A stretch of 64,000 nt of DNA from Ilex aquifolium. Lineage: Eukaryota; Streptophyta; Magnoliopsida; Aquifoliales; Aquifoliaceae. Where the stretch lies: positions 53,334,093 to 53,398,092 of the forward strand of contig OX637392.1 in NCBI GenBank assembly GCA_951799425.1. The letters run 5' to 3'. This document shows positions 2,765-64,000 of this stretch, in pieces. Made by a program: the position numbers and the translations under genes. The notes beneath the pieces are model-generated. The model was not told where the DNA came from and did no database searches. It was given only the letters and a program-made list of their open reading frames with translations. Each line of letters starts with the position of its first letter. The stretch's first letter is position 1.

Positions 2765-3754
2765 GGGTTTTTGGAAGCCGGTACACCTAATTAGAGTTAT
2801 TTGGCAAAAAGTACACATTAAAAAATATCTTGGAAAAAAGTACACTACATAGATACAAAGACCTAAATACCCCATTTATGGTCATTTAATTCAAAATCTC
2901 TTATCTTTAATGCACATTGATTCATGTGTATTAACAATTCAAAATCTCTTAATCTTTAATGCACCTTGATTCATATATATATATATATATATATATATAA
3001 ATTCGTATATATATATATATATGAGAACTTTAATATTCTATATTTGTATATCATCCCTTGATTCATGCGAATTTTTTTTGAAACTTTAATATTCTATATT
3101 TGTATGTCCTCCCTTGATTCAAGCGAATTTTTTTTTGAAAGTGATTTTGTTTTCAAATTATATTTAATGCACCTTGATTCATGCGTTTTTTTTTTTTTGG
3201 AAAGTGGTTTTATTTTCAAATTAATTTAATATCCGAAATAGTGTAATAGTGTAACAATAACAGTGTAACAATAAAAGTGTAAAAGTGTAACAATGTAACA
3301 ATAACAGTGTAACAAGCTATATACACAAAATATTGTACTATTACATTTTGTTAAACATATATTTTCACATAATTTCATTCAAAACAGTTCATCTCCGTTT
3401 AGAATTTATTACCACATGCACAAAGTGTAACAATAAAAGTGTAATAGTATAACAATAACTGTTACACTGTTATTGTTACACTGTTACACTTTTATTGTTA
3501 CACTGTTATTGTTACACTATTATACTATTTCGGATATTAAATTAATTTGAAAATAAAATAACTTTCCAAAAAAAAAAACGCATGAATAAAGGTGTATTAA
3601 ATATAATTTGAAAACAAAATCACTTTCCAAAAAAAATTCGCATGAATCAAGAGAGGACATACAAATATAGAATATTAAAGTTCAAAAAAAAATTCGCATG
3701 AATCAAGGGAGGATATACAAATATAGAATATTAAAGTTCTCATATATATATATC

Positions 3755-6641: not shown

Positions 6642-7915
6642 AACGTTGAGCAGATAGTAAAACTAATTTTATTAAGTTTTCAAAATATTCAAATTATACA
6701 AATAACGCGTAGTTCGATTCTATCTGATTTATTTATAATCGTACATTTTTCTTTAATAAAAACTATTTATAATTTTATGTTTTATAGTGAATTTTCGTAG
6801 CTACAGTTTATCCATGGACATAACTTCTAGAATCGAACCACATAAATTAGATTTTTCTATATTTTCATATATAATTTACATTAAGACAATTCCAGTAAAA
6901 AGGAAAAATAAAATAAAATAATGATTCGATCTCTTATAGTTTCTAACAATAAGAAATAGGAGTCAGGATTGAAATTGTTACTATTGTTTAACAATAAAAA
7001 TAAAAATAAAAATAAATACCTTCTGAGAAAAAAAAATTAAAAAAATTAATTGTTTAATGTTAAATCTAAGTCATTCATCGATCAATAACTAATGCAATTA
7101 TTGAATCATTAGACAAGATGTTTTGGGAAAATCACCATAATTTGGGCAACACTTTGCTTGATTGGAAAGCCTTTGTTTGGTGAGGAGAACTAATCATTTA
7201 AAGTTATTATCTCAATTTGATCTCTAAAATTGTATAAAATTTAAGAAACAAGTCCATTTTGTCGAATTTTCTTTTTTTTTTTTTTAAAAAATGAAATAGT
7301 ATTCCACAACACTTGTTTCAATTTGTCCCCTAAATTCTATTTTGTTTCATTTCATGTTTTATAAGAAAACCCGAGATTACAGGAGTGGTTACTATAATTT
7401 ATACAGATGAATACCTAAATTGAGATAATTAAAAATTAAATTAAAACACGTGTCAAATTCGGCATATAAATGTAATATTTACCATAAAAGTTAGTTAGAA
7501 GAGATCATGTCGGCTAAGCATATTGACCTAGTGGGTAATATTTTCTTCTCAAAACAATCATTGATTTCCTTTTTCCCATTGGCGTGTGATGTGGTTTGCA
7601 ATTGAAGCAACAAGAAGACAATGACAACTAGGAAAATCCTTTCCTCAATCATTTAATTCATTATTTCTCGTATTAAATTTTTTTTTACAGATAATTTGTT
7701 TTTCGGTGACCGGTCTTTGTCGGGGATTGAATCTTAGCGTAATAGACTGATCAAAAAAAATAAAAAATCTTAGCGTAATAACAAGCTTATTTTATTATGA
7801 AAAAAATGATACATGGTCGAGGTACAGAAACAACAACGTAACCGTTTCGTAACAATAATCTCGTATACTGTTCTATTTCTACAATTGATTAGAATTCCCA
7901 AATGCTATGAAGAGA
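6642..7915. other. AT-rich intergenic DNA, no gene seen
   Basis: A possible SINE tail-like stretch ends in an A-run near 7755-7765. No open frame or gene domain recognised. Confidence 0.45.
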
Positions 7916-7923
7916 GGTATGAG

Positions 7924-9093
7924 TAGGGATGTCAAACATGTCAGATTGAAATCATTTCGTGTCGAATTGATTTCGAGTTTGTGTCAAAAATTTCAAAACC
8001 CAAACCTGACATATTTAATAATCGTGTCGAGATGTATAACACACTAACCAGACTTGCCCATTAAACGGGTTACCCGAACCCGACCTATTTGACACGTTTA
8101 ATAAACATGTCATTTTTGGGTTAACACACATAACATGATTTGTTTAACTTGTTTAGCACACATAACACATACATGTTTAACACACATAACCTGTTTCCAC
8201 ACTAGTTCATTACCATTAAATACATCATTTAATCATTCATCTAAAATTTCAAATAATTTTTTTACAAATAACATCACATCTCATCAATGAAATTAACTAA
8301 AATGCATTCAAGTTTCAACCCAAAAATTAAAACAAGAACTATACTTGTATATTTGTCATAATAATGTTAAAAACTATACTGTCAATTATCATAATAGAAA
8401 TAAAAATTAGTCATACCCCGTGCCTGAAGGCATGCTGAAACATAAAATTCAAACGTTCAAAAAAATTCGTTCTATTATACCAAATAACATTTTTTTTTTC
8501 TACCTAAAAAAATGATTCTATTTAAAATTAATTTCTACCTATTATTTTCTTAAAAAAGAGCATCAATTTTCTCAACATGTATAATCGAATAAAATTTTCT
8601 CAACATGTGTATATTATCATGTATGGACAAAGAATGAAATAAAAATTGTGTTAAATTATAAATTAATTAAATATTAAATAATTAAACATGTGATAAAATT
8701 AAGTGATGTGGTGTTTTTGAGGGAAAAAATATATAGGGGATAAAATTCAACTTCTTATGTGTTTTATTATATAGATATAGATGTTTTTTTTTTTTAGATA
8801 ATATAGATATAGATGTTAAGACCACATCAGTCATACATATTAGACAAACTATACTGCCATAAACAGGTCTACAATAGGTTAGGTCGAGTTTGTGTACTAA
8901 TCATATCAACCCGTTTAAAATATACTGGTTAATAAGGTCAAAATCAGGTTGACCTGATTTTGACATGAACCCAACACGATTTTTTTCGTATTTAAGCGTG
9001 TTGATCCATTTTAATCCATTAACTCGTTTAATTTTATATTCGACCCATTAATTTCGTATTCGATTCGTATCGTGTTAAAAATTGACAGACCTA
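7924..9093. mobile_element. hAT-type non-autonomous element, split by a Helitron
   Basis: The left end reads TAGGGATGTCAAACATGTC and the right end ATTGACAGACCTA (inverted copies of TAGG..TGTCAA). Flanks GGTATGAG (7916-7923) and AGTATGAG (9094-9101) match at 7 of 8 positions, the hAT 8-bp signature. The interior is rich in GACCCG/CACGTTT/CCCGTTTAA phrases typical of this MITE type. The Helitron at 8407-8775 lies inside, so the hAT is older. No transposase. Confidence 0.75.
8407..8775 (-). mobile_element. Non-autonomous Helitron, 369 bp, complete ends
   Basis: Read on the minus strand it starts TCTATATAATAAAAC (8775 inward) and ends with a hairpin GCATGCCTTCAGGCAC followed by CTAA (8407-8410). 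It sits between A (8406) and T (8776), the canonical Helitron AT target, with no target duplication. No coding capacity. Confidence 0.8.
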
Positions 9094-9339
9094 AGTATGA
9101 GCTGCCACCAAATGCTATGATGGTGTTGAGTACTCCTACCAGGTGGTCCAGGCACTGCATTATTCATTGCACCCAAAAAAGTCATTATCATTTCTATTAT
9201 TATTAGTTTATTAATTATCATCACGAACATAGTCAAACTTTCTTGATAAAGATGTCTTGGATTTGAGTAGAAGATAAGACTTATAATTCTACTATATGAA
9301 AAATAAATACAACTTTAGATTTAATAACATTAAATATTT

Positions 9340-9889
9340 GGGTTAATTGCATTGGAGGTCCTCAAAGTATGGAGTTTGTCTCATTTTAGTCCCCAATGTT
9401 TCAATTGCATCATTTTGGTCCCTGAAGTATTGAATATGTTTTTATATGGTAATTCAAGTAGACAACATTCAGATTGCTAATGATTTCTTATCATAAACTT
9501 GTCACGTAATACCTAAATATGAACAAAAAAAAATTTTGATAGCTTTGAAACAAAATTTTGGTGGCTCTTTACAAAAAAATGTATAATATGGGTAACTTTT
9601 GACGAAAATTTAGATAGCTCATTATTAAAACTATGTAATTTGGGTAGCTATTTAACCAAAATTTGAGTAGAAATTTGGTCAAGAATTATTCAAATTATTT
9701 TTTTGTCCATATTTAAGTATCACGTGATAATTTTATGATAAAAAATTGTTAGCAATCTAGACGCTATTTGTTTGAGGGACCATTTAGAAACATATTCAAT
9801 ACTCCAGAGATTAAAATAATGCAATTGAAATATTAGGGATCAAAATGAGACAAATTCCATACTTTGGGGACTTCCAGTGCAATTAATCC
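9340..9889. mobile_element. Mutator-type MITE with perfect 9-bp target duplication
   Basis: The ends are long inverted repeats of about 90 bp (left begins GGGTTAATTGCATTGG; right, reverse-complemented, GGATTAATTGCACTGG; both continue through TTTGTCTCATTTT to TATTGAATATG). Flanked exactly by TAAATATTT (9331-9339, 9890-9898). No transposase frame. The TIR motif is similar to that of the element at 1331-1868, suggesting the same or a sister family. Confidence 0.88.
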
Positions 9890-9898
9890 TAAATATTT

Positions 9899-11097
9899 TA
9901 TGTGATAAAAATTTGATTTTTCAACAAAAAATGGGCTTTTTTTTTTTTTTTTCAACTTGATTGATAAAAGGCAAAGGACAAGAAATAATTGAAGAAGATG
10001 AAGTTGTTAGTTAGGTCAACTAAAAAAGATGACATTTGTCTTCACAATACAAGGTTTTATCTCGATTTCTGTCAATTTTTTCTCGATTAATTATGACTTT
10101 TTATTCAACAAAACCCGTTACGTGTAAAATTTTTATTTTAATATTTTTTCAATCAATTATTACAAATCATCTTAACTAAAATATACCATTGTATATCAAT
10201 TTCAACATGGTACTTCCGCACTAGCTTAGCCTTATCCACTAAACAAACCTCATCCAAGGAGGATGAGGTAGGGTGTACGAAAAGCTGGTGGAGCTTCTTG
10301 ATGTATTCTTTAAAGAGTAGTTATTTGGATTAAATTTGTAAATAATAATTAATGCTCATAATTTCCCTTCCCTAAAAAGAGAAAAAAGGAAATATATTTA
10401 AAAAAAAGGTAAAAGCATTAACTGGCTAAGATTCATGGTGTATTTACATATTTATTAAGAGCAAATGATGTTTAGACATAATTTATTGACCTGATTATTC
10501 ATAATTACTGGATTGAGAGTGGACCCCATTATTTGTTAGTATTCATAGCCAATTTAATGATTGTGATAAATTATATCAACAAATTAAATTAAAATAAAAA
10601 TATAAAAAATTGATTTAATTTATAGACAAAATGATATATTACATGGTAGAGCCCAATGAAGAAGTTCAACAGCTAGGATGATAATAATAATACTAGGCCA
10701 TGTCATTTTCGCATCATTATGTCGGGAATTATGTAGGTCCCATAGCTTTACTTAAAACAAAAAAACTTGGGCATCCTCAATTAAAGTTTTCTAAATCAAA
10801 TCACACACAGATTTAATGGGATATTTGTTTTTTTCCAAATGAGTCATAATCTCATTAAATTACATTGTAAACTTTCCAACAAAAGCATCTAATTTTATAT
10901 TAGAAATCTAATTAAATTAATCATGTTTCTATATTGATTTCCCAAGCAAATCCAACACAAACCCAACTCCCCCCTCCCCCACATTGCACTATGGTTGATT
11001 CCATACAAGCTTTCCAACTCATGTCAGAAATAAAAATCACAATATGTGGCACTAAAGTTACTAAACATGTGAATCCCCCCACCGCCACCCCATGAGA
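9899..11097. other. Intergenic DNA upstream of the TBL gene
   Basis: AT-rich, with no gene or complete transposon recognised. It will contain the distal promoter of the gene starting at 11239, but no specific element can be assigned with confidence. Confidence 0.5.
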
Positions 11098-28947: not shown

Positions 28948-31025
28948 TATGAGACCCGAACTTGCAAATGCATAATATATTATAAATATTGGGAGCTAAT
29001 GTATAATTTATAATAATTAATTTGGGGGTTAAATTATAATAATTAGAATTATGGTTGTTGAGTTATAATTTAAAATTATAACCCTAGGGGTTTGAATTTT
29101 GTGATAAAAATGGTAGTTGGGTGTAATATGGTATTAAGGGGGAAAAGTTTTGGGTGTGAATTTATAAATATTTAAAATTTACTGGGGTGTGAGTGAGGAA
29201 ATGAAGTGTAGAGGGACCCAAATAGAATTTGAGGGAAAGAGGTGAGTCACAAGAGACAAGTGTCTCTCAGCCCACCCCCAATATATATATATATATTTAT
29301 GTGTGTGTGTGTCCAACATGAGCTTCAAAGAAAGGGAGAGACAGAGATAGAGAAGTGGAGTGAAGAGAGAAATAAGAGTGGGGTTGAGAGGGAAGATAAC
29401 CTGACGGAGGAGTTTTGATCTTTTGGTTCGAAAATTGGCGTGGAACAAACCAATTTTCTTGGATTTCTTGATTTCAAATAGACTTTGTCGAAGAACTGGA
29501 AGATAGTAATTTTTCTTGGCAATGAATTTTGTTAATAATTCTTTATATTTAGTTGTTTAAAAACATAGGTAAAAAGGTTGAGTTTTGGTCTATGAAAATC
29601 TTCGCTTTAGGGAATGGTTTTGATATTGGTTTTAGTTTGTGGATTTTGTATGATGGGTTTGTAATAGATATGAAATATCATATGTTTGGGGATTATAATT
29701 GATGGTATGTATACTAGAAGTTGTGGGGTTGAGTGAGAAAAATTGAGGAAGAAGATGGAATGAAGAAGGGTTTATGTCAGACTTTTACCAGTAGAAAGTG
29801 GTGTTCGTTCTACCGGTAGGAAGTGATGTCCTATTGGTAGGATGACATTCTGAAAGAAGTTTTATCGGTAGAAACATGAAATTCTCACTATTTTATCGTA
29901 ACGTTTGTAATTTGATGTCCACTCAACCTCAAACCTTCTTTAAACACTTTAATGGGTTTGAATCAATTTTAGTTGATTTTATTATCTACAAACATGTCAT
30001 TAAGCCTAAGGGTTGGATAAAATAAGAGGGAGTATTGGGAAGACGTCATGTTAAGCTCGATTATTACTTCTGCATGTGTAGCATAATATTATTTTTTTGT
30101 AAATGATATTTATGTGTTTTGTGGTGATGTATGCTAGATATTGAGACGATAACGTCATTGTCGGATTCACCTTATATTACACAAGGAGACTGAATCCGGG
30201 TTTGGATTTAAATCGAGGTGAGTGTATTGATTCATATTGATTGAAAATGAGATTATGTGTTTATTAACTATATTTATGTGAAATAACTTAAAGATTATTT
30301 GGTAAGTTATGAATTGTGAAATATTGATTGTTTGTTACTAGTTATGTTTATTTGTAAATAGCTAGTTTGTGAATAAGTGGCTTAAGGATTATGGATTGGT
30401 GTTGGGTATGATTTCAAATACTTGAATTGATTTTGGGTGCTTACCAATATGTGGTTGCCGAGACTACTTGACATAAACGGTAGCATTATAATAGCCGAGA
30501 CTCCCGGGCATATACGGGTAGTGTTATAATAGCCAAGACTCCCGGGCATATACGGGTAGTGTTATAATAGCCAAGACTCCCGGACATATTCAGGCAACAA
30601 TATGATTTTCGAGACTCTCGGGCATATTCGGGTAGTAATATGGTTGCCGAGACTCCTAGGCATATATGGGTAGTGATGAGATTGCCGAGACTTCTAGGTG
30701 TTATTGGATAGTCGGATATTGGATATGTGATTTTGGTTAGTGGGTGTTGGAAATTGGATGTTGGTTATTTTATGTTAAATTACACTTTTATTGTGTATGT
30801 GAATTACGATTATAATTGTAATGTTTTTATGTGTTTTCTTTCTATATGTTTCGAATATACTTATTGAACGTGTGGTTTGCTCACCCCCCAGTTGTTTATT
30901 TTCAGGTGTATGGATTAAAGAAATGGTCTACTAAGCAGTTTACCTTGACATAGAGGTGTTGGTGTCAGATTGTATTTTATGTGAAGAGTTACAATGTATA
31001 CATGTTGTAAATATATTTAAAGGGT
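28948..31025 (+). mobile_element. Possible solo LTR of a Ty3/gypsy element (fossil)
   Basis: Begins TGAGACCCGAACTTGCA, the kind of start used by long plant gypsy LTRs, and contains a GA-rich leader, a tandem repeat at 30450-30705 and a terminal part (GTGTGGTTTGCTCACCCCCC) recalled from such LTRs. The right edge and target duplication were not found, and no internal region adjoins it. Tentative. Confidence 0.35.
30450..30705 (+). repeat. Tandem repeat, about 46-bp unit
   Basis: Five to six units built on GCCGAGACTCCCGGGCATAT followed by a GGGTAGT phrase. The first three copies are nearly identical; later ones are diverged. Confidence 0.85.
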
Positions 31026-48355: not shown

Positions 48356-49209
48356 ACTTTAGGCATGGAATTATGTACTTGGTTTGAATTTTTCTTCATT
48401 TTTATGTCCTAGTTCCAGAAAACTGGATCTGCGGTGCAAGTTTCAATTTTACACTAATTCTGTTCATTTAATTGTATGTTTCAAGTGATAAATTAATGCC
48501 ACTATGTTTCAGATCCATGTCTACTTTCTCTTGCGAAACAATTGACACGGTATGCCTGAGATTTTGGATTAAGATATTCAAAACACAACCAATATTGCTA
48601 TTTTTTCTTTGTTCCAAACAACTTTGCCGAGCAAATAGAAAGAAAAGAAACTCACAGTAGGTAATTTAAGACCTAATATTTTACATTATCTACACAAAAT
48701 GGATATTCTTTGTTTAGAAACTCTAATCTTAAAAAATAATTAATAGTCTCATATTTAATCATCATCAATTGATTTGAGGTAGATACTTTAGCTTGTTATC
48801 AAATCTAGGTTTGAGGAAACTCTCAGCAAGCCTTTGTATTATAATTTTATCATCTTTCTGATCAACTTCCTCTTTATGCTTGACATAAGGACACCATATT
48901 CCATTACGCCCTATTTGATACTAAGGCCGGTTTGGAGCCTTGTCTCCTATTCCCTTTATCATATTCCTAGCTCTCTTAATGCAATTGTCATATTCTTATC
49001 ATCGGAATTTCTATATTTCTTTATTGTTTCATATCTATAGTTTCGGATGAATCTAAAAAACCCTTGTTCTGGTTCTTCTTTTATTTATGTTCTAGCTTCG
49101 ATTTTTTCAAATTTATAGTTATTTTTAAGAGAAAATTGAGTCGCAAAACGTTCAATCATTTCTACTAATAAATGGAAAGGTTATTTTGTGTTACTGAATA
49201 AAAGTTTTT
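48356..49209. other. 3' flank of the membrane-protein gene, no further gene seen
   Basis: T-rich, with a probable 3' UTR in the first 150 bases or so. No clear AATAAA next to the stop. The small open frames at 48472 and 48834 have no recognisable domains. Confidence 0.45.
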
Positions 49210-49392
49210 GAGTAATGCTACATTGATTAAATTTTGGGACCAAATTTAGAGCCCAAATAACATGACAACATGTCATTTGGAGTATTTATTGGGGCCCAAA
49301 TGATATAGCACCAAATAAATAAGTCCAAGTCAGTTGCCATGTCATTTGGGCTCTAAATTTGATCCCAAAATTTGATCAGTGTAGCATTACTC
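49210..49392. mobile_element. Mutator-type MITE, 183 bp
   Basis: Left GAGTAATGCTACATTGATTA and right (reverse complement) GAGTAATGCTACACTGATCA continue as inverted repeats for about 60 bp each (through AAATTTTGGGA and AAATTTAGAGCCCAAAT), nearly meeting. Flanks AAAGTTTTT (49201-49209) and AAAATTTTT (49393-49401) match at 8 of 9. Confidence 0.82.
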
Positions 49393-49479
49393 AAAATTTT
49401 TAGGAGCATACCATTGCTCGTACTACTTGTTCAATTATTAGATATCAGTGCGTGGAAGCTTTCAAATTTGGACATAGAA

Positions 49480-51075: not shown

Positions 51076-51665
51076 TGATGGTGTATGTGACACGAACGAG
51101 CAGAGATATTAATTTGATGAGCATTGAGTTATTCAGTCTGAGCTCCTAGGCTCTTTAAGATTTGGGACAAGGGAGTTGGAGTTAACACAAGAAGAGTTTA
51201 TAGTGGTTCACCGGCTCAGGAGCTCGGCTAATCCACTCTCAAGGAAGTTTCTTGCTCCTAGGACTTATATTGATAAGAAAAGAGATTACATAATTCTTGT
51301 TTTAGCTACAATGACTTGTTTCTATGGCTGGGGGCTATGCCTCTTATTTATGGTTGACCTTAAGCTTTGCTTGATTTTTGGCGTGATCCTTGCTCTTCCT
51401 TGTAATTGTTGCCACTATCCCGCAACGGTTGTGGAGAGTGTTGAGGCGGTTGCGATTCTTCTGTCTAGATAAGCGACCGTTACTATCGGGGTGGTGCTTG
51501 GTGGAAACCAGCTGTCTTCTATGCTAGCCTCCTTGAGATGTAGTTGCAGGGAGGGGAGGTCTGACCTTGAGCTCCATGGGCATCCAAAGCGAACTGGGCT
51601 CCCGATCTAGGAGAGCATGACTCAAATTATCGAGCTCAACTTTAGGCATATTCAAGGTATCATCA
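51076..51665 (-). repeat. 3' LTR of the Tat element
   Basis: 590 bp from TGATGGTGTATGTGAC to GGTATCATCA, matched by the start of the other LTR at 63631. A purine tract (minus-strand GGACTGGGGGGCAAC, 51666-51680) adjoins it. Confidence 0.85.
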
Positions 51666-51680
51666 GTTGCCCCCCAGTCC
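51666..51680 (-). other. Polypurine tract of the Tat element
   Basis: Minus-strand GGACTGGGGGGCAAC immediately next to the 3' LTR, the expected plus-strand primer site. Confidence 0.7.
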
Positions 51681-51725: not shown

Positions 51726-54700
51726 GTGAGTGAGGCTGTCTGGGATCAACCTCGAGATGCACATGATGGGACGTTTCTCGTCTATTATGGCGAACATGCA
51801 CTCATTTCTGCCTCATTTTTCGTGCACGTCCCTCATCCTATGGTTCCACGTGTCTATCCGTACACTAGCCTTAAATACATCAGCAGACAAAATCACATTC
51901 TTCATCATTTCGAACTCTCTTCGTATTCTTTCTCCAGATTTTTCTCCTTTCCCTTTTCCTTCGCGATTTCGTCTTCCCAATCTTCCGGTGATCCAGGTTT
52001 TTAGTGGCAATTTCCCGAATTCTTTCCGAAGATTCTGCGAGGCTAGCCTAGTCCATTCGTTGGATCTATCTTGGGTCTTTGATTATTTCTCGACTTCAGC
52101 TAGGTACGTCCTTCGCTCTACTCCTCTCCTTCTTTTAAGCTTCCATTCGTTTTGGATCCCTCGAATTCGAGGTGGTTGTTTTGCTTCTGGACTTTTTGTT
52201 TTTGTTACTTTAGGAATCAAGGTCGTTCCTTGTCCTTCCTTCCTCTTTTTCTGGACCCTTATTCCACTGCTAGGATTTTTCTTTTTGACCGCTGGTGTCT
52301 GGACCCTTGGGCCCTCAAGGACTACTTTACCACCGTTCATCCCCTCTATACTTCTTTTAACCTTCATTTCTCATACCCTGCCATGTCCGTCACTTCTAAA
52401 GCCACTGCTTCATCCGTCTCCCTTGCCATGGGCAACAGGTCTCCTGAATTAGAGGAGGATGCCTTGGGGGATACGGGTGACGAGATAGACAAATTTCCTG
52501 GTGTCGATTCTATTGATGCCGAGGAGGAGGCCGAGGCCCCTCCATCATTGTCAAGCCCTGCTCCGAGACCTAAGAAGTCTCAAAAAGGGAAATCCAAGGT
52601 GAGTGGAGTTGGGACTTTTGGCAGTGCTAGAGACACAGAGGTCTTTCCCTGGGCTTTAGACCTCATAGGTTTTAGTGAGGTCACCCCTCATTTTCTGAGC
52701 ATCCTTTCTACTCAGTTTGGTTTTCCAAGAGGTATGCAGTACTGGTCTCCAAACGTGGATATTCAGTATGATACCATAGTCCAAGAGAAGGTTTTTTTCT
52801 TATTGGCTTCTTTTGAGAATGACCTTTGGTTTCCTATGCATCCCTTCCTCAAGAATGTTCTTCAACATTTCAACGTTTGTCCTGCTCAGCTTTCTCCCAA
52901 TTTCTAGAGTGTTCTGGTGGGTCTTTTGGTTTTCTTCAAGAAGAACAAGCTTGATGTCCCCATGATACCTTTGTTTATGAAATTTTTTAACGTTAAGGTC
53001 ATCCCTTCTGATGACTTTATATATATAGCCAAACGGGTGATGACCCGAGTTCTAATCTCCGACCTTCTGAGCTCCCACAAGGGATGAAAGAAGCTCTTCT
53101 TCTTCGTGTCTGAGAAAGAGTGGGAGTTTAATCCTTGGGATACGGTTGATACACTCCTTGTACCTCGGCTTTGGTCTGCCCCTGATAATTTGGGTAAGTT
53201 CTACCTAAGAAGACCTGGTCTAGCCTTATAGCTTGGTGTTTTCTTTTGCTGACCTTGTTTACTTTTTATCACTTTCAGGTATCTAACCCGATCCTAGTGC
53301 TGAGGATAGGATAGTCCTGTTGGGCTTGGAGAGCTATCAACCAGAGAATTATTCTAAGCTTCTCAACCCTACGATGCTCAATCAGTTCGGGTTTAGTCTT
53401 CCCGAGGTGAGAGTTAAAACTCCCCTTCAATTAACCGTGGCTGGTGTTGAAGATCCTGCTGGTAAGACTCCTATTTCTTCATCTCTAGTTCTTTCTTCCT
53501 TCTTTCTTTTTTGTTTTTGTTTTTAATGATCTGTTTACTTTGGTTTCTCAAGTTCCAGCTCGATGGCTCCAGATGCTGAGGCGGTAAGGGCCAAGGTGGC
53601 CCAATTTAGGAAAGGCAGATCTGGTGGAAATCATAAGGCCGAGGTCGGATCTGGGGAAGACCCAGGTTCTGTTCAAAAAATATCAAGAGTAAGCTCGTCG
53701 TCTCCTCCACCGGCTCCTCAGAAGACCTCTCCATTAATGCAGTCTATAGTGGTCTCCACTTCCCAAGGGATCCCTATTCTCTTCCCTCTGTGGGGTTCTC
53801 TAGACTAGTTGGGATTTCGTCTTCCCCTTCATCGACAGCGGTTGCTGGGGCCCTCAAAGCCATAGCTCCTCTCCTGTGAGTATCTTTTCCCTCCCAATCT
53901 GTCGAGAAGGTTCCTCATTTGCCCATGGAGGGCTCGTCAGGAAAGGCGATAAAAGGCAAGTGTTCGCTTATCAGGATCATGAATCTTGCTGCCGAGGCCA
54001 TTGCGTCCGCTATCCTTGAGTCTGACATCCAGGAAGTTTCGATGGTGCCTTTGTCTATCTCGACCACCACTGCTTTGTATGGAGCAACTTCGTAAGGTCT
54101 GAGTTTTCTATACTCTATTTTTACGTTGAGTAGACAGTTTTTTCTGACCTCATCTTTTCTTAGCTGGCCATTCATGTGAGCGCCTTGGTGAGCAGAGTTC
54201 GAGCTCTGGAAGGCACTATCGAGGCGTCTCAAAAATCCTTGAAAGCCTTCGAGCTTAAGGTTGCCGATTTGACCTTCACAAACGAGGACCTAAAAGCTCA
54301 GGTACACGACCTAAAGGCTCAGATCACCAGGTTGAGCTCAGCGAACAAGGGCTTAGAAATCAAAGCTAGAAAGGTCAATGACGAGATTAAGCTTAAGGCT
54401 GACAACTTGCTTCAGGTGCGGAAGGATGCCTTCGCAGCTCTTTATTCTCTCCAGTCCATGAAGAGAGAGTATGCCATGCGAGCTGAGGTTAATGTTGTGA
54501 TGTTGAAGGAGATTGAGGCAGAGAGAGCCAAGGTTCGAGTGAAAGATACCCAGATAACAGTGCTTCAAGACGAGTCTACTACAAACTGGGTAGTGGGGTA
54601 CTTTTGTGACGCCCCTAAAACCGGGGGATCCTTTATTAACCGTTGACAACCCATCAACCCGCGGAAGTACCAGTGATTGTCGCACAACCCGACATCACGT

Positions 54701-57633
54701 CAATATCATACCCTTGACCAGGATTATAAAAGAAAAACAAAGTCTATATACTTTTAATCGGTTGACCCATCCGAGGTCCAACATACCACCATTGGTAGTC
54801 TATTATTGTCCATTTATAACATTTGAAGGGAGGAAACACATAACCCAAAAGTTTGGCAAAAAAGTTTTAAAAGTTCAGATTTTTGGAAAGCGTACCGGTA
54901 TGTCGTACCGGTACGTTGTGCCTACTGGACCACGTTGTACTGGTAAGGCCTACCGGTAGAGTTTGCCTTCTGGACAACGATGTACCGGTACATTTTGCCG
55001 AGATTTGCTTGTTTCACCTATTTTCAATTTCCAATCCATTCCAAAACATATCATTTTCATCCAACACATGTATAATGAAGATTTTCATATTAGACAAGGT
55101 CCATACCAACTCTATTACATTCACTTACATGAATTCACATGTCAAAACTAAATTTTCATAATCATTTACAAAAACTCAAAATAAAGCCACATTCCAGCTT
55201 TCTTCATCCACGGGGCTCGAATTGGGAGCCATCCACCAGTGTATATCCCGCACCTGAAATGTTTTTCCCGTATAGGGTGAGTCACGCTCAATAGAGTATC
55301 TCCTACAAAGGCTACTCCCCAACCTAAGTGCATATGAAATGTTCACATGCAACCAAACAACAATTCATAACATTCCAAACAAGAACATGTAATTCAATGT
55401 TGGATTTCTACCATGTCGTGCCATGAAATAAGATGAGACTCACTCTTGCACTTTGACCCAAGCTCTCACCGGCTCCCACAACACAATGCAATGCCAATGT
55501 GTAATAAATCAGCCATTGATGAAATGCATCCAATGATCATTTCGAAATAAAAATCATGTTTTTATTATAAAACAAGATCATTGTTGGATGTTATACATCG
55601 AATGACTATTTTATAAAATAAATACACTTTTCCGGAATTTCACCTCAAGGGAGTGTATGAACCAGATATTTTATAAAATAAAATCATGTGTCTTTGTTGG
55701 GTAGCGGAGTTTTGGTATCGCACCGCTGGTTCCGCACACCAATACACTTTTCCAGAATTTCACCTCAGGGAAGTGTATGAACCAGGTAGCCGGGTCATAC
55801 ACCCGAAGGAGAGTCTAGTCCTTCTTGCTATACCCGACATAAGTTTTTCATGCAACTGTGCGACTCAGCCGAAACTTCGTTCCAGCTTTTCCCGAGCCCA
55901 CCCATCATCCATCATCCATCATCCACCAAGTATAGTGTCTGATTGAACCATGCCCAATATGCAATGAATGTCAAATGAGCAATTTAACCACATATCAACA
56001 TGTTCCATGGCAGTTTATATCTCAAGCATATAATTACCACAATTTATCACGATGTTAATATCTTAACAACATATATCAACACATTCATTCCACTATAATT
56101 TTCTCAAGCATGTCATCACATAATCATGCAATTAACACACCAAATTCATCAAGGCATAATGTAAACACATAACATGCCCACAAACCCTATTTTACCAAGA
56201 AATTACATACTTAGCAATTTCTAATTACCAATTCACACTAGAATTGAATTTACCCATTTACAACACCCAATTCCATCAACTCTACAACAATAGGCAAGTG
56301 ATATAAGCTTCTATCATCCTACTTATTTCATATAAACACCCTAGGCAATTTCTACATACACAATTCGAGATAGAATATACTCTACTCATTTTCAATACCC
56401 ATTTCACCGAAACAACAACCATAACAAGTGCTAAAGATGTTTAACAACCTACCCATTTCATATCACATTCCTAGGTTGAAAATAAACCTAAGTAGGAAGA
56501 AAACCCTACCTCTTGAAGCGTAAAGAACAATCGTAGGAAGTTCCAAGAACCCGCTTCTAGCCCAAATCCCTAGCTTCTAAAAATCCCGTTCCTTGATCTT
56601 TGGTAAAACCCGCACTTTTTGGTATGGCCGCGTAGCCCTTGACGAGAGGAACAACTTTAATACTTGGCTTGTGTTGATTCGAGCGACATGGTGGCGTAGA
56701 TCGTAGAGAGAAGGTGGAGAACTTTCTCTATTTCCATCTCTTCCTCTCTGTCGGGTAAACGGATGAGTGGTGGGGAAGAAATTCAGATTTTTCCCCCTAT
56801 TTATACTTCTCAATACTTGACTTACAACGCGTCACACGACCCTCTTTTTCTCGGGTCCGTTTTTGCCCCGAAACGATTAAATTTTGGCTCGGTTCAAGTT
56901 CAAAATATTTTTATTTTAACTTGCCTTAAACTATTTTTCAATTTTCGAAATTTTATTAAAAATTTCGTTTTTGGGTTACCCGAGACCCAACCGCCTCGTA
57001 AAACGCGAAAAATTCGACTATGTCGGAATTCGACGAAATTTGACAGGGTAACTAGATTTCGCGAGACGAATCCAACGGTGAGGTCTGTTTCGTCATCCGA
57101 GCTCTAAAAAAATTCAGGTTTGCAACCTGTATCATAGTGGCAAATTACCGTTTTGCACTTTTTACAAAAAGTTCAAATTTACCCAGGCTTTACAACTTTG
57201 CCTTCCAAGAGCAGGCCATGTACAAATATCCCGATCAGGACTTCGACTTTGATCATCCTCTAGACAAATAGAAGGAAAGGTCACCTGTAGATAAAGAGGT
57301 TGGGGTCGAGGTTTTTGCTTCTGGTGCTATTCCTAGGGCCGAAGCTTCTGCTGCTATTCCTATTGAGACTGGTGTTGAGGCTTTTGGGCTTATTCTAGCT
57401 GAGGTGACTGTTTCAATAGAGGTGGGAATTTCTGAGAGTACTCTGCCCCCAGCTGAAGTGGAAGTCTCTGCCCCTGTCCTTTATGAGGCTCATTCTGATT
57501 CATCTGTTCTTCCTCCAGCTCTGTCTGATCTTTTTCTTGCTTCATCTGGCCTTCCTCTTGCACTGCTCGAGGCAGTGACTATGCCCGAGATGCCCCAAAT
57601 TGAGAAAATCAGAGATCCTGTTGTGGATTCCTA
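51726..57633 (+). pseudogene. Antisense ORF region of the Tat element (fossil)
   Basis: Several plus-strand open stretches lie opposite to gag-pol: an N-terminal acidic part then LDLIGFSEVTPHFLSIL- and YWSPNVDIQYDTIVQEKVFF-like text (about 52380-52910), a middle part (about 53280-53810), a coiled-coil-like stretch rich in Ala, Leu, Lys and Glu (about 54176-54590), and a Pro/Ala/Glu-rich end (about 57200-57633). Several Tat elements, for example Grande, are known to carry such an antisense gene of unknown function, some with introns. This copy is broken and also interrupted by the nested LTR. Confidence 0.65.
54605..57156 (+). mobile_element. Nested solo LTR, about 2.55 kb (fossil)
   Basis: Starts TGTGACGCCCCTAAAACC, a common start of long plant gypsy LTRs, and interrupts the antisense ORF region. 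The direct repeat ACTTT occurs at 54600-54604 and 57157-57161, giving the likely 5-bp target duplication; the last base of the LTR is ambiguous by one position. A plus-strand TATTTATA near 56803 fits an LTR promoter. A 50-bp phrase (AATACACTTTTCC...GTGTATGAACCAG) is repeated at 55621 and 55741. No internal region, hence solo. Confidence 0.75.
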
Positions 57634-57793
57634 GGGCTTTTTATTCTTTAAAACTTCCCCTTTACCCCATTGCTTCAAGGACAACTCTGTTCTTCTGGGT
57701 GCAATTCTGTTTTTTTCAAGTATGAGGTCTGTTTCCAAGCTGAGGAGCTTATCTAAGAAACTTAGCTTTTTGAAGAACTCAATGTAGTTGGGT

Positions 57794-58135
57794 GAACTGA
57801 AGATCTCATCTTAGTTTTTTTTTTTTTTTTTATGAGCTGAAGAGCTCATCGTTGTTTTTATGAGCTGAAAAGCTCATCTTAGTTTTATGAGCTGAAGTGC
57901 TCATTGTCGTTTTTATGAGCTGAAGAGCTCATTGTTGTTTGTCTAAGCTGAAGAGCTCATCTTAGTTTTTTATGAGCTGAAGAGTTCATCATTGTTTTTA
58001 TGAGCTGAAGATATCATCTTAGTTTTTATGAGCTGAAGAACTCATCATTGTTTGTATGAGCTGAAAAACTCATCTTAGTTTTTTATGAGCTGACGAGCTC
58101 ATCTTAGTATTTATGAGCTGAATGACAACTATGTT
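57794..58135. repeat. Array of small hairpins, about 29-bp unit, about 12 copies
   Basis: The unit is ATGAGCTGAAGAGCTCAT followed by a T-rich linker. ATGAGCT and AGCTCAT can pair around a GAAG loop, so each copy is a self-contained hairpin. Linkers alternate between CTTAGTTTT-like and CATTGTTTTT-like, giving a higher-order period near 58. The array lies between the 3' end of the minus-strand integrase and the end of the plus-strand antisense ORF region. Confidence 0.85.
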
Positions 58136-58239
58136 GGAACTTCTTTTTTATTCCAATGAAGTTTTTACAAGAATGTAGTTCTTTGCTATTGGAAGAACTT
58201 CTTCAAATGCTCAACATTCCAAGAATGAGGTAAAACTCT

Positions 58240-59237
58240 TCATTCTTCAGTTCGTAGCTTGTAATTTTCTGGCCTGATTATTCTGGATATCATGTACGGG
58301 CCTTCCCAATTGGGCCCTAACTTCCCGTGAGTGAGGTCTTTTCCAGCTGGAAGAAGTTTCTTGAGGACCAGATCTCCTACTATGAAACTCCTATGTCTGA
58401 ATTTTCTGTTGTAGAATCGAGCAGTTTTCCTTTGATAGTCAAGGATGTGTTGTAAGGCTCTATCCCTTTTTTCTTCTAGGAGGTCGAGATTGATTATGAG
58501 TGATTCGTTGTTTAGCTCGGGGTTGGCGAGCTTTGTTCTTGGGGATGAGATGCGTATCTCCACAGGGGCCACTGCTTCAGTTGCATAAGCCAAGGCGAAT
58601 GGCATTTCTTGAGTCACCGACCTCACTATGGTTCTGTAAGCCCACAACACTTCTGACAGATGTTCCACTCATCGTCTTTTTAATGCTTCGAGTTTGGTCT
58701 TCAGTGTTGCTTTTATAGTTCGGATAGTTATTTCTGCTTGTCCATTAGACTAGGGATGAGCCGGTGCTGAGAAGTAATTTTTTATGCTTAGCTCGGCACA
58801 AAAACCTTTAAACTTTGAGTAAAACTCTGGATTTTCTGCTATGTGATCTTCGCAAGCGGCTCCACCTCAGCCCACTTGGTGAAGTAATCTACCCCTATTA
58901 GGAAAAAATTACATTGTTCTGTGCTTGTTGGAAGAGGGCCTAGTATGTCTAGACCTTATTACTGGAATGACCATGGGCTCATCACCGGAGTGAGGAGCTC
59001 TGGTGGGCTATTTGTAATATTGACATGCACTTGATAGGTTATGTATCTCTTGACTAGGTCTAGTGAGTCCCTAAGCATGGTGAGCCAGAAATACCCTTGC
59101 CTTAGGGCTTTGCTAGCCAGAGCTCGAGCTCCTATGTGATTGCCGCAAATGCCTTCATGGATTTCCCTTAGAACGTAATTGGCCTTCTTGCCTCCTACAC
59201 ACCTCAGGAACGGTGCTGAGAAGTCTCGTTTGTACAT
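58240..59237 (-). pseudogene. Integrase region of the Tat element (fossil)
   Basis: The zinc-binding part (REIHEGICGNHIGARALASK, near 59150), the core end (EVLWAYRTI, near 58640) and the C-terminal GKLGPNWEGPYMI are recognisable in that order. Some breaks. Confidence 0.8.
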
Positions 59238-59579
59238 ATTTCCTTGGAGGATGGTGAATCTGGACGGCCTAGCTCTTAGCTTTGCTGCTTATTTAGAATC
59301 TGCGGGTAAGGTTCCATTCTGAAGGTATTCCCTAATTGGGTCTATCCAAGTCAGCTGAGTCTGAACAGGCAATACCTCATCGACCTTGGGACTTACTGTC
59401 GGTTCTGCTAGGTGTTCAACCAGGATGAGCCTATCTAGGTTTTTCTGGGAAGCAGTGGCCAGCTTGGCTAAGGCATCGGCTCAGAAATTTTCAGCCCTAA
59501 GGACATGTACGACCTTAACTTACACAATTTTTTTCATCAGCTCTTGTACCTTTTTCAGATATGGAGCCATTCTTTCCCC

Positions 59580-61342
59580 CTAGGTCTCATATGCTTCCTC
59601 GATCTGTTTTACTACCAACTGGTAGTTGCCGTGAATCACAAGCTGTTCTACTACCATGGAACGAGCCAAGTTGAGCCCGACAATCACAGCCTTGTATTCA
59701 GCTTCGTTATTTGAAGCTTTGAAATTGAATTTGAGGGTGTACTCTATATCTATCCCATCTGGGGAGGTCAAGATCAGTTCAGCACCGCTGCCTTGGGCGT
59801 TGGCAACACCGTCTACCGAGGTGACTTGGGTTGCCTCTAGGGATGCTTCTTGACCTGGTGTGAATTCTGTAATAAACTCTGTCAGTATTTTCCCTTTGAT
59901 CACGGTTCTGGGTTTGTTCTTGATGTCGAACTCGTTGAGCTCTATTGCCCACTTGACCAGCCTTCCTGACGATTCTGGCTTATGCAAAACCTATTTCATT
60001 GGCTGATCTGTGGGGATTTCTATTGTGTGGGTCTGGAAATAAGGCCTGAGTCTCCTTGTAGCTGTTACGAGAGCAAATACTAGTTTTTCCATCTTCAAAT
60101 ATCTCTCATCTGCCCCTCTCAGATCTCTGCTGCAGTACTAGACTGGTTGCTGAGCTCTGTCTCGCAATTTGACCAATGCTGCGCTAGTTGAGAAATCTGA
60201 GACAGTCAGGTATAGAGTGAGCACATCTCTCTGTCTAGGGCTCACAAGGATCGGGGGCAAACTGAGGTAATCCTTGAGGGTTTTGAATGTCTCCTCGCAC
60301 TGTGCATCCCACTAGAATATTTTTTTCAAGACGTGGAAGAAGGGTTGACACTTGTCGCTCGACCTGGAGACAAATCAACTTAAGGCTGTAATCCTACCTG
60401 TTAGATGTTGAACCTCTCTTGTGTTTGAGGGTGGTTGCATGTCTATTACAGCTCTGACCTTCTCTGAGTTAGCCTCTATTCCTCGGCTATTGACTATAGA
60501 ACACAGGAATTTCCAACAGAGACCGCGAAGACGCATTTGGCTAGGTTGAGCTTCATCTGGTACTTCTTAAGGATTTGGAAAGAGTCTTCGAAGTGTCTGA
60601 TATGGAGATCAGCTTTCAATGAATTCACCAGCATGTCATCTATGTACACCTCCATTGATGTCCCGATCTATTTCTAGAACATATGATTTACCAAACGTTG
60701 GTAAGTGGCTCCAATGTTCTTTAGTCCGAATGACATAACCTGATAGCAATAAGTCCCTTGCTTAGTTACAAGGGACATATTTTCTTGGTCGCTGGGGTTC
60801 ATCCTGATCTAGTTGTATCCTGAAAAAACATCCATAAAACTGAGCAGTTCATGCCCCGCTGTGGCATCCACGATCAAGTCAATTCGGGGCAAGGGAAAAC
60901 TGTCCTTTAGGTAGGCACGATTTAGGTTAGTGAAGTCGATGTAGAGACGCCACTTGCCGTTGATTTTCTTTACAAGGACCACATTGGCCAGGTAGGTTGG
61001 ATAATCTACCTCCCTGATGGCCTTGGCATGGAGGAGCTTAGAGACCTCCCCGTTTATTGCTTTCTGGCGTTCTGGGGCAAAACTTCTTCGTTTATGCTTG
61101 ATGGGCTTGAAGGTTGGATTCACGCTGAGCTTGTGCGTGATGACTGAGGGATCAATCCCTTGCATATCCTCCTGCTTCCATGCGAATACCTCCATGTTCT
61201 TTTTAAGAAATTTAATAAGGAGGTCTTTAACCTCTTTGAGCAGCTTTAATCCCACGTACACCAAATGCTCTGGTTCTTCATCAAGTTGGATAGGCTCTAG
61301 CTCTTCTAAAGACATGGGCCTTGTCTCAAGTTCGTCCCTCAT
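59580..61342 (-). pseudogene. Reverse transcriptase and dual RNase H region (fossil)
   Basis: RT text KINGKWRLYIDFTNLN and SFPLPRIDLIVDATAG lies near 60830-60990; the stretch to 59990 holds the rest of RT and the first RNase H; a second RNase H has NNEAEYKAVIVGLNLA near 59700. Two RNase H domains support the Tat lineage. Several breaks. Confidence 0.8.
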
Positions 61343-61417
61343 ATCGAGCTCATCCAGGTGTATGGTTTCGACTTATTTCTTCTTTATAAATGTCAAGTAG
61401 CACTCTCGCGCCACTCA

Positions 61418-61825
61418 CTAGTCTCCTTGGTCCACTCCAACATCATTCTCAGTAGGAAACTTCATTACAAGGTGGTAGACAGAAGGAATAACTCTCATGG
61501 CATTGAGGGAGGGTCTTCCCAGTAGAACGTTGTATGCTAATGGGGCATTAGCGACCAAGAATCTCATGGTGGTGGTGGATTGATAGGGAGGATCTCCCAT
61601 TGTGTGGACGAGCTAGATTGAGTCCAAGGGTAACACTCTTTCTCCAGAGAACCCGAGTAGTTGAGCTTTTACTAGCTTGAGCTTGTCTCTGCCAATGTTC
61701 ATTTTGTCAAAAGCAGAAGCGGAGATGATATCGGCAGAGCTTCCATTGTCAACGAGGACTCGATAAACAGTCATGTTGGAATGATGACTCTTACTACCAA
61801 GGGTTCGTCGTGGGGATATTGACAA
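61418..61825 (-). pseudogene. Protease region (fossil)
   Basis: VYRVLVDNGSSADIISASAF is the aspartic protease motif, followed by YNVLLGRPSLNAM. Broken. Confidence 0.8.
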
Positions 61826-61906
61826 GCTTCCAGATCTGCATCTGAAAATGTTATGTCCATGATCAGCTGAGGTGCCTTGGACACTGTATGTACCTCTGAC
61901 AATTCT

Positions 61907-63570
61907 TCAGTTTAGACTTTTCGCATATGAGCCGTCCTGGCAAAGCTGGTTTCCCCCTCCAGCAAATCCTCCTGATATCATTCTGATCTCTCCCATAGGC
62001 TGTTGGTGCGGTGGAAGAGTAGGCTGTTGCGGTGCAGGAGGTGGATGAGCTCGGTTTTGATTATCCTGTGCTACGAAGCGACGTAACTGCCTCCTCTGAA
62101 TTATGAACTCAATCTCTTTTTTTAGCTGGATGCAATCGTCAGTGAGGTGGCCATGGTCCCTATTATTCTCACAATATTTCATCGCATCCCGTTTTGTGGG
62201 GTCTGCCTTCATCTGAGGTGGCCACCTCAGAAATTTTTCATTTTGTACTTGGTAGAGGACCTGGGATACCGTGGCATTGAGGGAAGTGAACTGCCGTGGT
62301 GGATATCTTGGTTGTAGCTCTTGAGGGGGAGGTCCCAGGCAATCTCTTATATTCCCTCTCCTATTTGATGAGCGCTTTCTGTCTCTTCATGGTGAGTGCT
62401 CTCAACTTCACTTCTTCTTTGGACTTCAGTCCTTCCTCTTCTCCTTCTCCTTATGGGTAGTTGAGCTCCCAGCCTTGGAACGAAGAGCTTCCTCTCCATT
62501 AATATATTTCTCCGCCTTGGCAAGGACCTCAGTCATACTGGCTTGTAGGTTCTTGAAAATGGAGAACATCAAGTTCTTCGACTGGACTCCCAGCCCGGCA
62601 ATGAAGGCAAATTTCTCATCAGGGACATCTGCTTTTAGAGATTCTAAATTGAACCTCCGAATGTAGCTTCGTAGCGCCTCATTGGGTCCCTACTTTACAT
62701 TCAGCAAGTGATAGCTCGACTTTCGATAGGTTCAAGCTCCTATGAAGTGGGAAATGAATGAGATGGAGAGATCTCTGAAGGAGGAGATAGATGCTGGGGT
62801 CAGCCTATTGAACCAGGCTAAGGATGGGCCCTTCAATGTGATGGAGAAGGCTCGGCAACGTACGGGGTCTTGATATTCATGTAGCTCTATCTGATTTTTA
62901 TAGGTGTTGAGATGGTCCATAGGGTCCTTCGTTTCATCAAAGGTCTCTATCTGAGGCATCCTGAACTTAGGTGGGAAGGGGAAATGTAGCACCTCTGCAA
63001 TAAAGGGAGATTCTATTTGCTGGACCAGGACGTCCATAGTCACTGGGGTTTTACCCCTTACAACCTCCTTTATGTGGCTGAGCTCTTATTGAATCTCCTT
63101 TAAGCGTTGCTCCCAGTACTGTTCCTTTCTCTTCTGCTGATGTGGGGGAAATTCATTTTGGTGAGTTCCCCTATTTTGACTTTATACATCTTCGTTGTCT
63201 TCGTTCCTCTGAGCTCGACGATGAGCATTGCTCACTGTCTAGCTATGCTTGTCCCCCTCAGTGATGTCTCTCAGGGGGTTGAGGTGTTGTTGTTTCCCTG
63301 TGGGGGACCGTCCTGGGCTGGCTGTGCCCTTTGGGGATGTTGGAGGAGGCTCAACAACTCTTCATTCTATCAAAGGAGGCGCTGATTGGCTAGGCGAAGA
63401 GCTTCAAGTTCGTTATTCGGAGGGGGATCCGCCATGGGTGGGTCAACCTCTGGATCAGGCAAGAAATCACGAGGATTTTTCTGTTGTCTTCCAGTGACAA
63501 CTTCTTGTTGGTTTTGTAATCGAAAGGGATTCATCTGACTTCTGCTCATATGGCGCGTAGAAACCATCAA
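61907..63570 (-). pseudogene. Gag region with zinc knuckle (fossil)
   Basis: The N-terminal part starts near 63570; the capsid text (MDHLNTYKNQIELHEYQD, SLAWFNRL) lies at about 62732-63043; the zinc knuckle (CENNRDHGHLTDDC) near 62150. Broken. Confidence 0.8.
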
Positions 63571-63630: not shown

Positions 63631-64000
63631 TGATAGTGTATGTGACATGAACGAGCATAGATAAGAATTTGATGAGTACTTAGTTATTCAGTCTAAGCTC
63701 CTGGGCTCTTTAAGATTTGGGACAAGGGAGTGGGAGTTAACACATGAAGAGTTTATAGTGGTTTACCGGCTCGAGAGCTCGGCTAATCCACTCTCAAGGG
63801 AATCTCTTACTCCTGAGACTTATATTGATAAGAAAAGAGATTACAAAATTCTTGTTTTAGCTACAATGGCTTGTTTCTATGGCTGGGGGCTATGCCCCTT
63901 ATTTATAGTTGATCCTAAGCTTTGCTTAATCTTTGGCATGATCCTTGCTCCTCCTTATAACTGTTGCCACTATCCCGCAACAGTTGTGGAGAATCTTGGG
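63631..64000 (-). repeat. 5' LTR of the Tat element, cut by the window end
   Basis: Matches 51076-51445 throughout with about a tenth of positions different. The remaining 220 or so bases lie beyond the window. Confidence 0.85.

Follow-up and report, generated by a model that had tools for sequence, protein, structure and literature searches.

Dyad-symmetric repeats beside pol in Retand-like retrotransposons of Ilex aquifolium: a candidate cis-acting module shared across lineages

Tandem repeat arrays beside pol are known from Retand retrotransposons and are described, in the accessible portion of a 2025 survey, as highly variable, family-specific and of unknown function (PMC11963269). The same source gives the function of the Retand antisense gene as unknown and the Transposase_28 protein as predicted to bind DNA (PMC11963269), and the antisense protein of the maize element Grande has been reported to be nuclear (PMC7264820, in its available part). 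The hairpin array of Ilex aquifolium analyzed here shares with the Retand repeats, to the extent that the available text documents them, the features of the clade, the place adjacent to pol, a unit length within 8–100 bp and a varying copy number. It differs from them in that one dyad core recurs across lineages, the arms of this core co-vary, and a gag-only family retains the array. Neither “hairpin” nor “stem-loop” occurs in the text of PMC11963269, and “palindrom” is found there only in the references.

Noncoding regions of other plant LTR retrotransposons likewise hold many copies of a short palindrome, the repeated motifs (RM) described for Sireviruses (Bousios et al., 2010; PMC2829016). 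In the available sections of that paper they are also located in a linker beside a gene, and a cis-regulatory role is proposed for them. However, RM belong to Ty1/copia elements, have a CGG-CCG core and lie in the LTR upstream of the promoter or before env, whereas the Ilex array is a 27-bp tandem array that follows pol between convergent genes, and its core of approximately TRARCT-NNNN-AGYTYA in the internal region of a Ty3/gypsy element sets it apart from RM. The Ogre-type soybean element Gmr9/GmOgre likewise carries a minisatellite between coding region and LTR, but this consists of five interleaved unit families (PMC3305785), and the terms hairpin, palindrome and secondary structure are absent from that text. 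VANDAL elements combine, as is proposed here, an element-encoded protein (VANC) with noncoding tandem arrays of a short motif (Nat Commun 2017; PMC5735166, accessible part); there the motif is the 9-base YAGTATTAY, binding has been demonstrated, and the motifs vary between related elements. The likeness of the proposed Ilex system to VANC would be one of scheme. Arrays beside pol and Sirevirus palindromes were known already, and what appears to be new here is the shared, arm-covarying dyad core across Retand lineages. Among the matches listed in searches of the open literature, none described such a shared array, and nothing matched on palindromes, hairpins or hypervariable repeats in Tat, Ogre or Retand elements; a literature search with the letters of the unit returned one match, which was unrelated.

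The window, that is, the whole 64,000-nucleotide stretch of DNA analyzed, contains an element that fits a Retand-like Ty3/gypsy retrotransposon of the Tat clade, because a second RNase H precedes the integrase and an antisense Transposase_28 piece is present (PMC6317226 and PMC11963269, each in its available part). On the minus strand the order is 5′ LTR (63631..64000, truncated by the window end), gag, RT, RNase H, RVT_3, integrase, pol stop and array, followed by a plus-strand antisense gene, a polypurine tract (51666–51680, as the plus-strand complement) and the adjoining 3′ LTR (51076..51665, minus strand). The decayed minus-strand gag-pol (58186..63085) was recognized by Pfam matches, several of them below the curated cut-off, to a gag piece (63085–62735), RT pieces (60808–60497), RNase H (RT_RNaseH_2; 60311–60141), RVT_3 (PF13456, E 2.3e-9; 59990–59583) and the integrase zinc domain (59288–58962), and the pol stop TAG (58188–58186) was located by comparison with relatives. 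Since the RVT_3 domain sits between RT_RNaseH_2 and the integrase zinc domain, it is, judged by this position, probably an archaeal-type RNase H (aRH); an aRH between RH and INT is a Tat/Retand feature (PMC6317226, accessible part). The antisense additional ORF region (52104..57634, plus strand) contains, between pol and the 3′ LTR, a weak Transposase_28 match (PF04195, E 6.5e-4, below the Pfam cut-off; 52104–52904), a piece with weak coiled-coil-type matches (54164–54643) and a last ORF piece (57272–57634). It is interrupted by a 2,590-bp TG...CA insertion without assigned strand (54605..57194), which is flanked by the 5-bp target duplication ACTTT (54600–54604 and 57195–57199) and is probably a nested solo LTR. 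A primer-binding-site-like TGGTGTCGTCTG lies directly inside the 5′ LTR. The two LTRs are 90.6% identical over 363 bp, and the window copy is therefore old. The placement of the array by the first-pass annotation, in a Tat element at the point where pol and the antisense gene converge, is thereby borne out.

Repeat finding and a motif scan delimited the array at 57832..58112 (plus strand), where ten full units follow each other at a spacing of 27–29 bp, mostly 28. Each full unit consists of an 18-bp inverted repeat (7-bp arms, 4-nt spacer) and a T-rich linker of 9–11 nt; the commonest core in the window is ATGAGCT-GAAG-AGCTCAT. Tandem Repeats Finder, one of the checks proposed beforehand, recovered the array at 57823–58122 with a period of 28, 10.7 copies and a score of 379, and a 113-bp period over the same array scores higher (406). 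The first-pass annotation had counted about twelve copies of a 29-bp unit, so that the array itself stands and the copy number and period are corrected. Decayed units adjoin its left edge (57735..57831, at 57792 and approximately 57735; plus strand) and a half unit its right edge (58113..58130, plus strand). All 11 occurrences of the 18-mer with up to three mismatches in the window fall inside the array, against a chance expectation of 0.03. A run of 17 T at 57815–57831, exactly at the position of the T tract of one linker, is probably a slippage product of a normal linker T run; the linkers of one relative (L024) likewise contain long T runs.

Perfect hairpins are formed by four of the ten window units (57832, 57860, 57915 and 58085), and the other six retain five or six of seven Watson–Crick pairs, which corrects the earlier description of the units as perfect or near-perfect hairpins. 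The perfect units fold stably on both strands. A 7-bp stem arises by chance in 0.7% of shuffles of one such unit and in 2.0% of the window's 28-mers treated as tandem units; at this rate, ten hairpins in one array represent one unusual event, not ten. Two variants had been thought to break pairing. This is true of GAAGAACTCAT on the plus strand, although a G-U pair remains in the sense (minus) RNA, whereas GAAAAGCTCAT alters the loop, its fold retaining the complete 7-bp stem. The alternation of linkers noted earlier is not significant in the window copy (runs test, exact p 0.089; even–odd permutation, p 0.33), but in many related copies two hairpin kinds do alternate, as dimers of 54–57 bp. 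Selection could not be read from the window copy alone, and we rejected this approach: the eight stem changes in the ten units each affect one arm only, with no two-arm change, and the unit cores depart from their majority at 11 of 180 sites, where decay at the pace of the LTRs would give 8.4 (P 0.23). An alignment of 12 units that includes the two decayed edge units yields one two-arm change, matched by 123 of 500 shuffles. The variants of the window copy thus fit decay after insertion and are uninformative on selection.

The exact 18-bp core occurs at 8,702 sites (4,349 + 4,353) in the 800-Mb assembly, and its reversed control at none. An array-picked set was formed by 20 loci that each contain one or more exact 18-mers and lie within the first 7.4 Mb of contig 1; a related pol adjoins the array in 18 of them. 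Over the C-terminal 1.1 kb of pol, 17 of these loci are 64.6–68.1% identical to the window, and the closest to the window pol is L011, with 80–86% over the matching pieces. In order to avoid selection by the array itself, a second set was fetched by pol: a protein search with the pol C-terminus gave 13,766 candidates, of which 150 were scored and listed, and 20 of these listed matches were chosen by hand, roughly half for their high place in the list and the others to cover a range of contigs. An array of at least two hairpin units lies beside the pol stop in 20 of 20 pol-picked loci (L046 has two units only), at a distance of approximately 70–140 nt; the notion that no other copy might carry the array is thus refuted. 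Units with at least five pairs number 247 in these 20 stretches and 1 in the reversed letters. In position, as tandem arrays between pol and the 3′ LTR, they correspond to Tat 3′ repeats, but a core common to all 20 pol-picked loci is at odds with a family-specific, highly variable repeat. A 201-nt pol segment available from 39 loci (L016 and L018 have no pol) shows a minimum identity of 61% and a median of 75%, and single linkage divides these loci into 3 groups at 80% and 20 groups at 90%; all copies compared derive from one genome. Many of the 150 scored pol relatives, on many contigs, retain open frames of about 1,824 aa, and the pol lineage has therefore probably been active recently in this host. 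A search of a viral contig collection gave no match to a two-unit pattern or to the 18-mer.

A relative of the L021 Transposase_28 piece lies on the array side in 16 of the 18 pol-bearing array-picked loci and anywhere in 17 of 18. Five loci (L010, L012, L013, L014 and L027) have two antisense Transposase_28 pieces each in the left half of the oriented stretch, one array-side and one farther away, where the window has one; four of the farther pieces are merely 28–39% identical to the L019 piece. A second minisatellite of about 40 bp, with GACTGTTGGTGTCTCCAAGAAGAGGTCAGCTTTGAATTT-like units, was seen on the antisense-gene side of the array in L013, L015, L019 and L025.

Within the units, conservation is concentrated in the arms. 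When repeat consensuses were derived free of any motif by Tandem Repeats Finder (28 of 41 loci, periods of 26–29 bp, frame set by the 18-mer), between-locus identity was 94.5% in the arms, 72.8% in the loop and 66.8% in the linker, and by inspection the arms are fully paired in 25 of the 28 consensuses. A pattern-picked estimate from 40 of 41 loci (without L048) gave 97.2, 83.6 and 69.7%, respectively, the arm figure being inflated because the units were picked by pattern and two arm letters. Of 522 units with at least six pairs, 512 have a spacer of 4 nt and ten a spacer of 5 nt, in a search whose pattern permitted 3–6 nt, and the consensus core reads approximately TRARCT-NNNN-AGYTYA. Among units with at least five pairs, perfect hairpins account for 63 of 69 in the three pol-picked loci whose pol frames exceed 1,000 aa and for 97 of 178 in the other 17, a difference that may in part be a lineage effect, since all three long-frame loci fall into one pol group.

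The arms also change together, as the first-pass annotation had proposed to check over other copies. An nhmmer profile built from the window units yielded 445 hits in its last round, of which 346 were ungapped, on the plus strand and started within the first four model positions; 323 of these have a neighbor within 80 bp and form a set defined by sequence only. Here, 125 of 126 two-arm changes are Watson–Crick, all of them combining transition with transition and none being a transversion-type pair swap; 97 affect pair 3, 26 pair 5 and one each pairs 2 and 6, and 146 changes affect a single arm. A pattern set of 594 units from 41 loci, in which six arm positions may vary by transitions only, includes chance hits outside arrays (L012, L046), and the recount was made on the 555 units inside Tandem Repeats Finder arrays. 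Their paired fraction is 0.940, compared with 0.890 (sd 0.003) after within-locus shuffling of the right arms. Two-arm changes in the recount exceed those of 400 shuffles at pair 3 (151; mean 75.1, maximum 86), at pair 5 (43; mean 32.6, maximum 39) and at pair 2 (6; mean 1.6, maximum 5), and more weakly at pair 6 (8; mean 3.8, maximum 8, equaled once), and pairs 4 and 7 show none inside arrays. Compensatory changes of the kind taken to indicate structured RNA are thus present at pairs 2, 3 and 5, with pair 6 weaker, and they would be equally expected from a DNA dyad. Genome-wide, pair 3 is A-T at 7,852 sites (control 2), half-changed at 979 (505 and 474; controls 1 and 4) and G-C at no fewer than 8,702. 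The units fall into classes with G-C or A-T at pair 3 and G-C or A-T at pair 5, and because the two-arm changes sit in few such inherited classes, the number of independent events lies well below these counts. Two of the three pol groups contain changes at pair 2 (L009, L010, L019, L023, L045, L047), and two contain changes at pair 6 (L021, L032, L033, L038, L042).

The array is also present in a young gag-only family that has neither pol nor antisense gene. Its first copy, L016, is a 3.6-kb element with a polypurine tract, a hairpin array in which the profile recognizes 24 units, an open gag of 414 aa (Retrotrans_gag, E 4.8e-16), LTRs 99.83% identical over 586 bp and the target duplication GGTTT; no pol match was found in it. 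The second copy, L018, has LTRs of 98.8% identity, its own target duplication CATGG and likewise a 414-aa frame, and as the two full copies occupy different sites, the family has moved together with the array. A Transposase_28 piece was found in neither copy. The gag frame of L016 terminates within the last hairpin of the array. Among pol-bearing elements, L042 and L048 have arrays similar to those of the gag-only family, with the pair-5 change. Near the gag-only element, at 8255–10000 of the oriented L016 stretch, self-comparison revealed head-to-tail repeats of about 173 bp that are roughly 97% alike.

The presence of the array at the same place in all sampled relatives, with halves that change together, suggests that it is needed and is not a product of chance stutter. 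We tentatively favor the reading, to which we give close to but short of an even chance, that the elements maintain the array as a cis-acting module, a series of dyad-symmetric sites for which an element-encoded factor is the probable reader. Natural selection would then maintain the array, and a sequence-specific factor would recognize the dyads, as the arms adhere to a single motif rather than only staying paired. A site at the DNA level is favored for two reasons: the sequence of the arms is itself conserved, and half-changed pairs are divided almost evenly between the strands, G-U half-changes in the 555 units numbering 105 on the plus and 94 on the minus strand. Each site beside the pol stop would comprise a half-site of approximately TRARCT, a 4-nt spacer and the mirrored half-site. 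The most likely candidate for the factor would be the antisense Transposase_28/coiled-coil protein that the element itself encodes, which would bind the array at the DNA level; it is put forward because a relative of it is encoded array-side in 16 of 18 loci, because it is a predicted DNA binder and because the antisense protein of Grande is reported to be nuclear. As the gag-only elements lack a Transposase_28 piece, the proposed binder would have to act there in trans, supplied from elsewhere. Such a pairing of trans factor and cis array would be VANC/VANDAL-like in design; VANDALs are DNA transposons. The wider claim, that Retand elements encode their own trans regulator together with a palindromic operator array kept across diverged lineages and that gag-only parasites borrow this regulator, is possible but rather unlikely. 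Should the repeats prove to be constrained dyad sites instead of hypervariable junk, the antisense gene and the repeats may be one system, and a defined test set for this now exists in the protein, the site and a natural minimal element with the site but without the gene.

Alternatively, the selected form could be RNA hairpins in the genomic RNA, serving packaging or dimerization, or 3′-end formation of a short gag-pol mRNA that would end at UUGUAA...AAUAA(A/G) while the full-length RNA continues to the 3′ LTR. This explanation, which we regard as unlikely yet worth weighing, draws on the G-C to A-U changes in both arms, the loop fixed at 4 nt and the stability of the perfect units when folded on either strand, and it would account for the retention of the array by gag-only elements, which need packaging in cis. 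It also draws on the stretch between pol stop and array, which we take to resemble a plant polyadenylation signal. In the window, this sense-strand stretch (58147..58170, minus strand) comprises TTGTAA (58170–58165) and AATAAA (58152–58147), and in the pol-picked set AATAAR is present in 19 of 20 intervals (mean of mononucleotide shuffles 5.4), full AATAAA in 17 and words like TTGTAA also in 17 (shuffle mean 2.5 for the latter), counts that are not independent because the loci are related. However, among 21 array-picked stretches that include the window and the gag-only elements, counted without shuffle control, AATAAR occurs in 20 but full AATAAA in merely 8. Moreover, the gag of the gag-only elements enters the array without any such noncoding stretch, and the role of the array is therefore independent of the poly(A)-like words. 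Further points against RNA hairpins are that the arms conserve sequence beyond pairing, with no transversion swap in 126 two-arm changes, that G-U half-changes show hardly any strand preference, and that Rfam gave no family at threshold for 57400–58400 (one match, 16.5 bits against a gathering score of 95). No report of internal polyadenylation of gag-pol was among the matches listed from the open literature. The first-pass annotation had further considered a transcript end in both directions, of which the sense half agrees with the words just described; on the antisense strand, the 300 bp before the array contain AATAAA in 1 of 21 loci (1.7 in shuffles) and any of four signals in 5 of 21 (6.0 in shuffles), and a two-way terminator was rejected for this absence of enrichment. 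A scan for bacterial-style terminators has no bearing on a plant.

An origin without selection is doubtful but has to be considered as well: palindromes would correct themselves, tandem exchange would spread the result, and recombination of co-packaged RNA would move arrays between lineages. Template switching or quasi-palindrome repair copies one arm of a palindrome onto the other. Tandem exchange is indeed visible in the 113-bp period and the 54–57-bp dimers, the two-arm changes fall into inherited classes, and abnormal strand transfer has been proposed as an origin of Tat tandem repeats (PMC7004042, available part). Self-correction leaves unexplained, however, why arms reach 94.5% identity where linkers reach 66.8% and pol 61–75%, why the spacer is fixed at 4 nt and why young gag-only elements carry the array.

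A host-side effect, with the hairpins as source or target of small RNAs, has its nearest published parallel in the palindrome clusters of maize Sireviruses (PMC2829016, PMC10760457, each as far as accessible), but it accounts neither for upkeep by the element nor for presence in all sampled copies, and a 7-bp stem is short; we consider this effect very improbable. Equally improbable is an ordinary hypervariable minisatellite of the Tat 3′ region in transition to satellite DNA, since, although known repeats of this type share the position and the shortness of the array (PMC11963269, PMC7004042, PMC3305785, in their available parts), the core is common to several lineages and the arrays seen are short; those of all 41 loci studied comprise 2–31 units with at least five pairs, which likewise lends no support to the earlier suggestion that they are raw material for satellites.

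Other repeats were observed in the window. An inverted repeat at 49201–49401 has 69-nt arms that are 90% complementary and separated by 63 nt, and is MITE-like. Pairs of 56-bp tandem units at 3026–3140 and 3625–3739, whose consensus units resemble reverse complements of each other, enclose an AT-rich repetitive block, and the whole structure (3026–3739) is possibly a foldback element. Outside the retrotransposon, a 38-bp minisatellite of 5.8 copies occupies positions 30457–30674.
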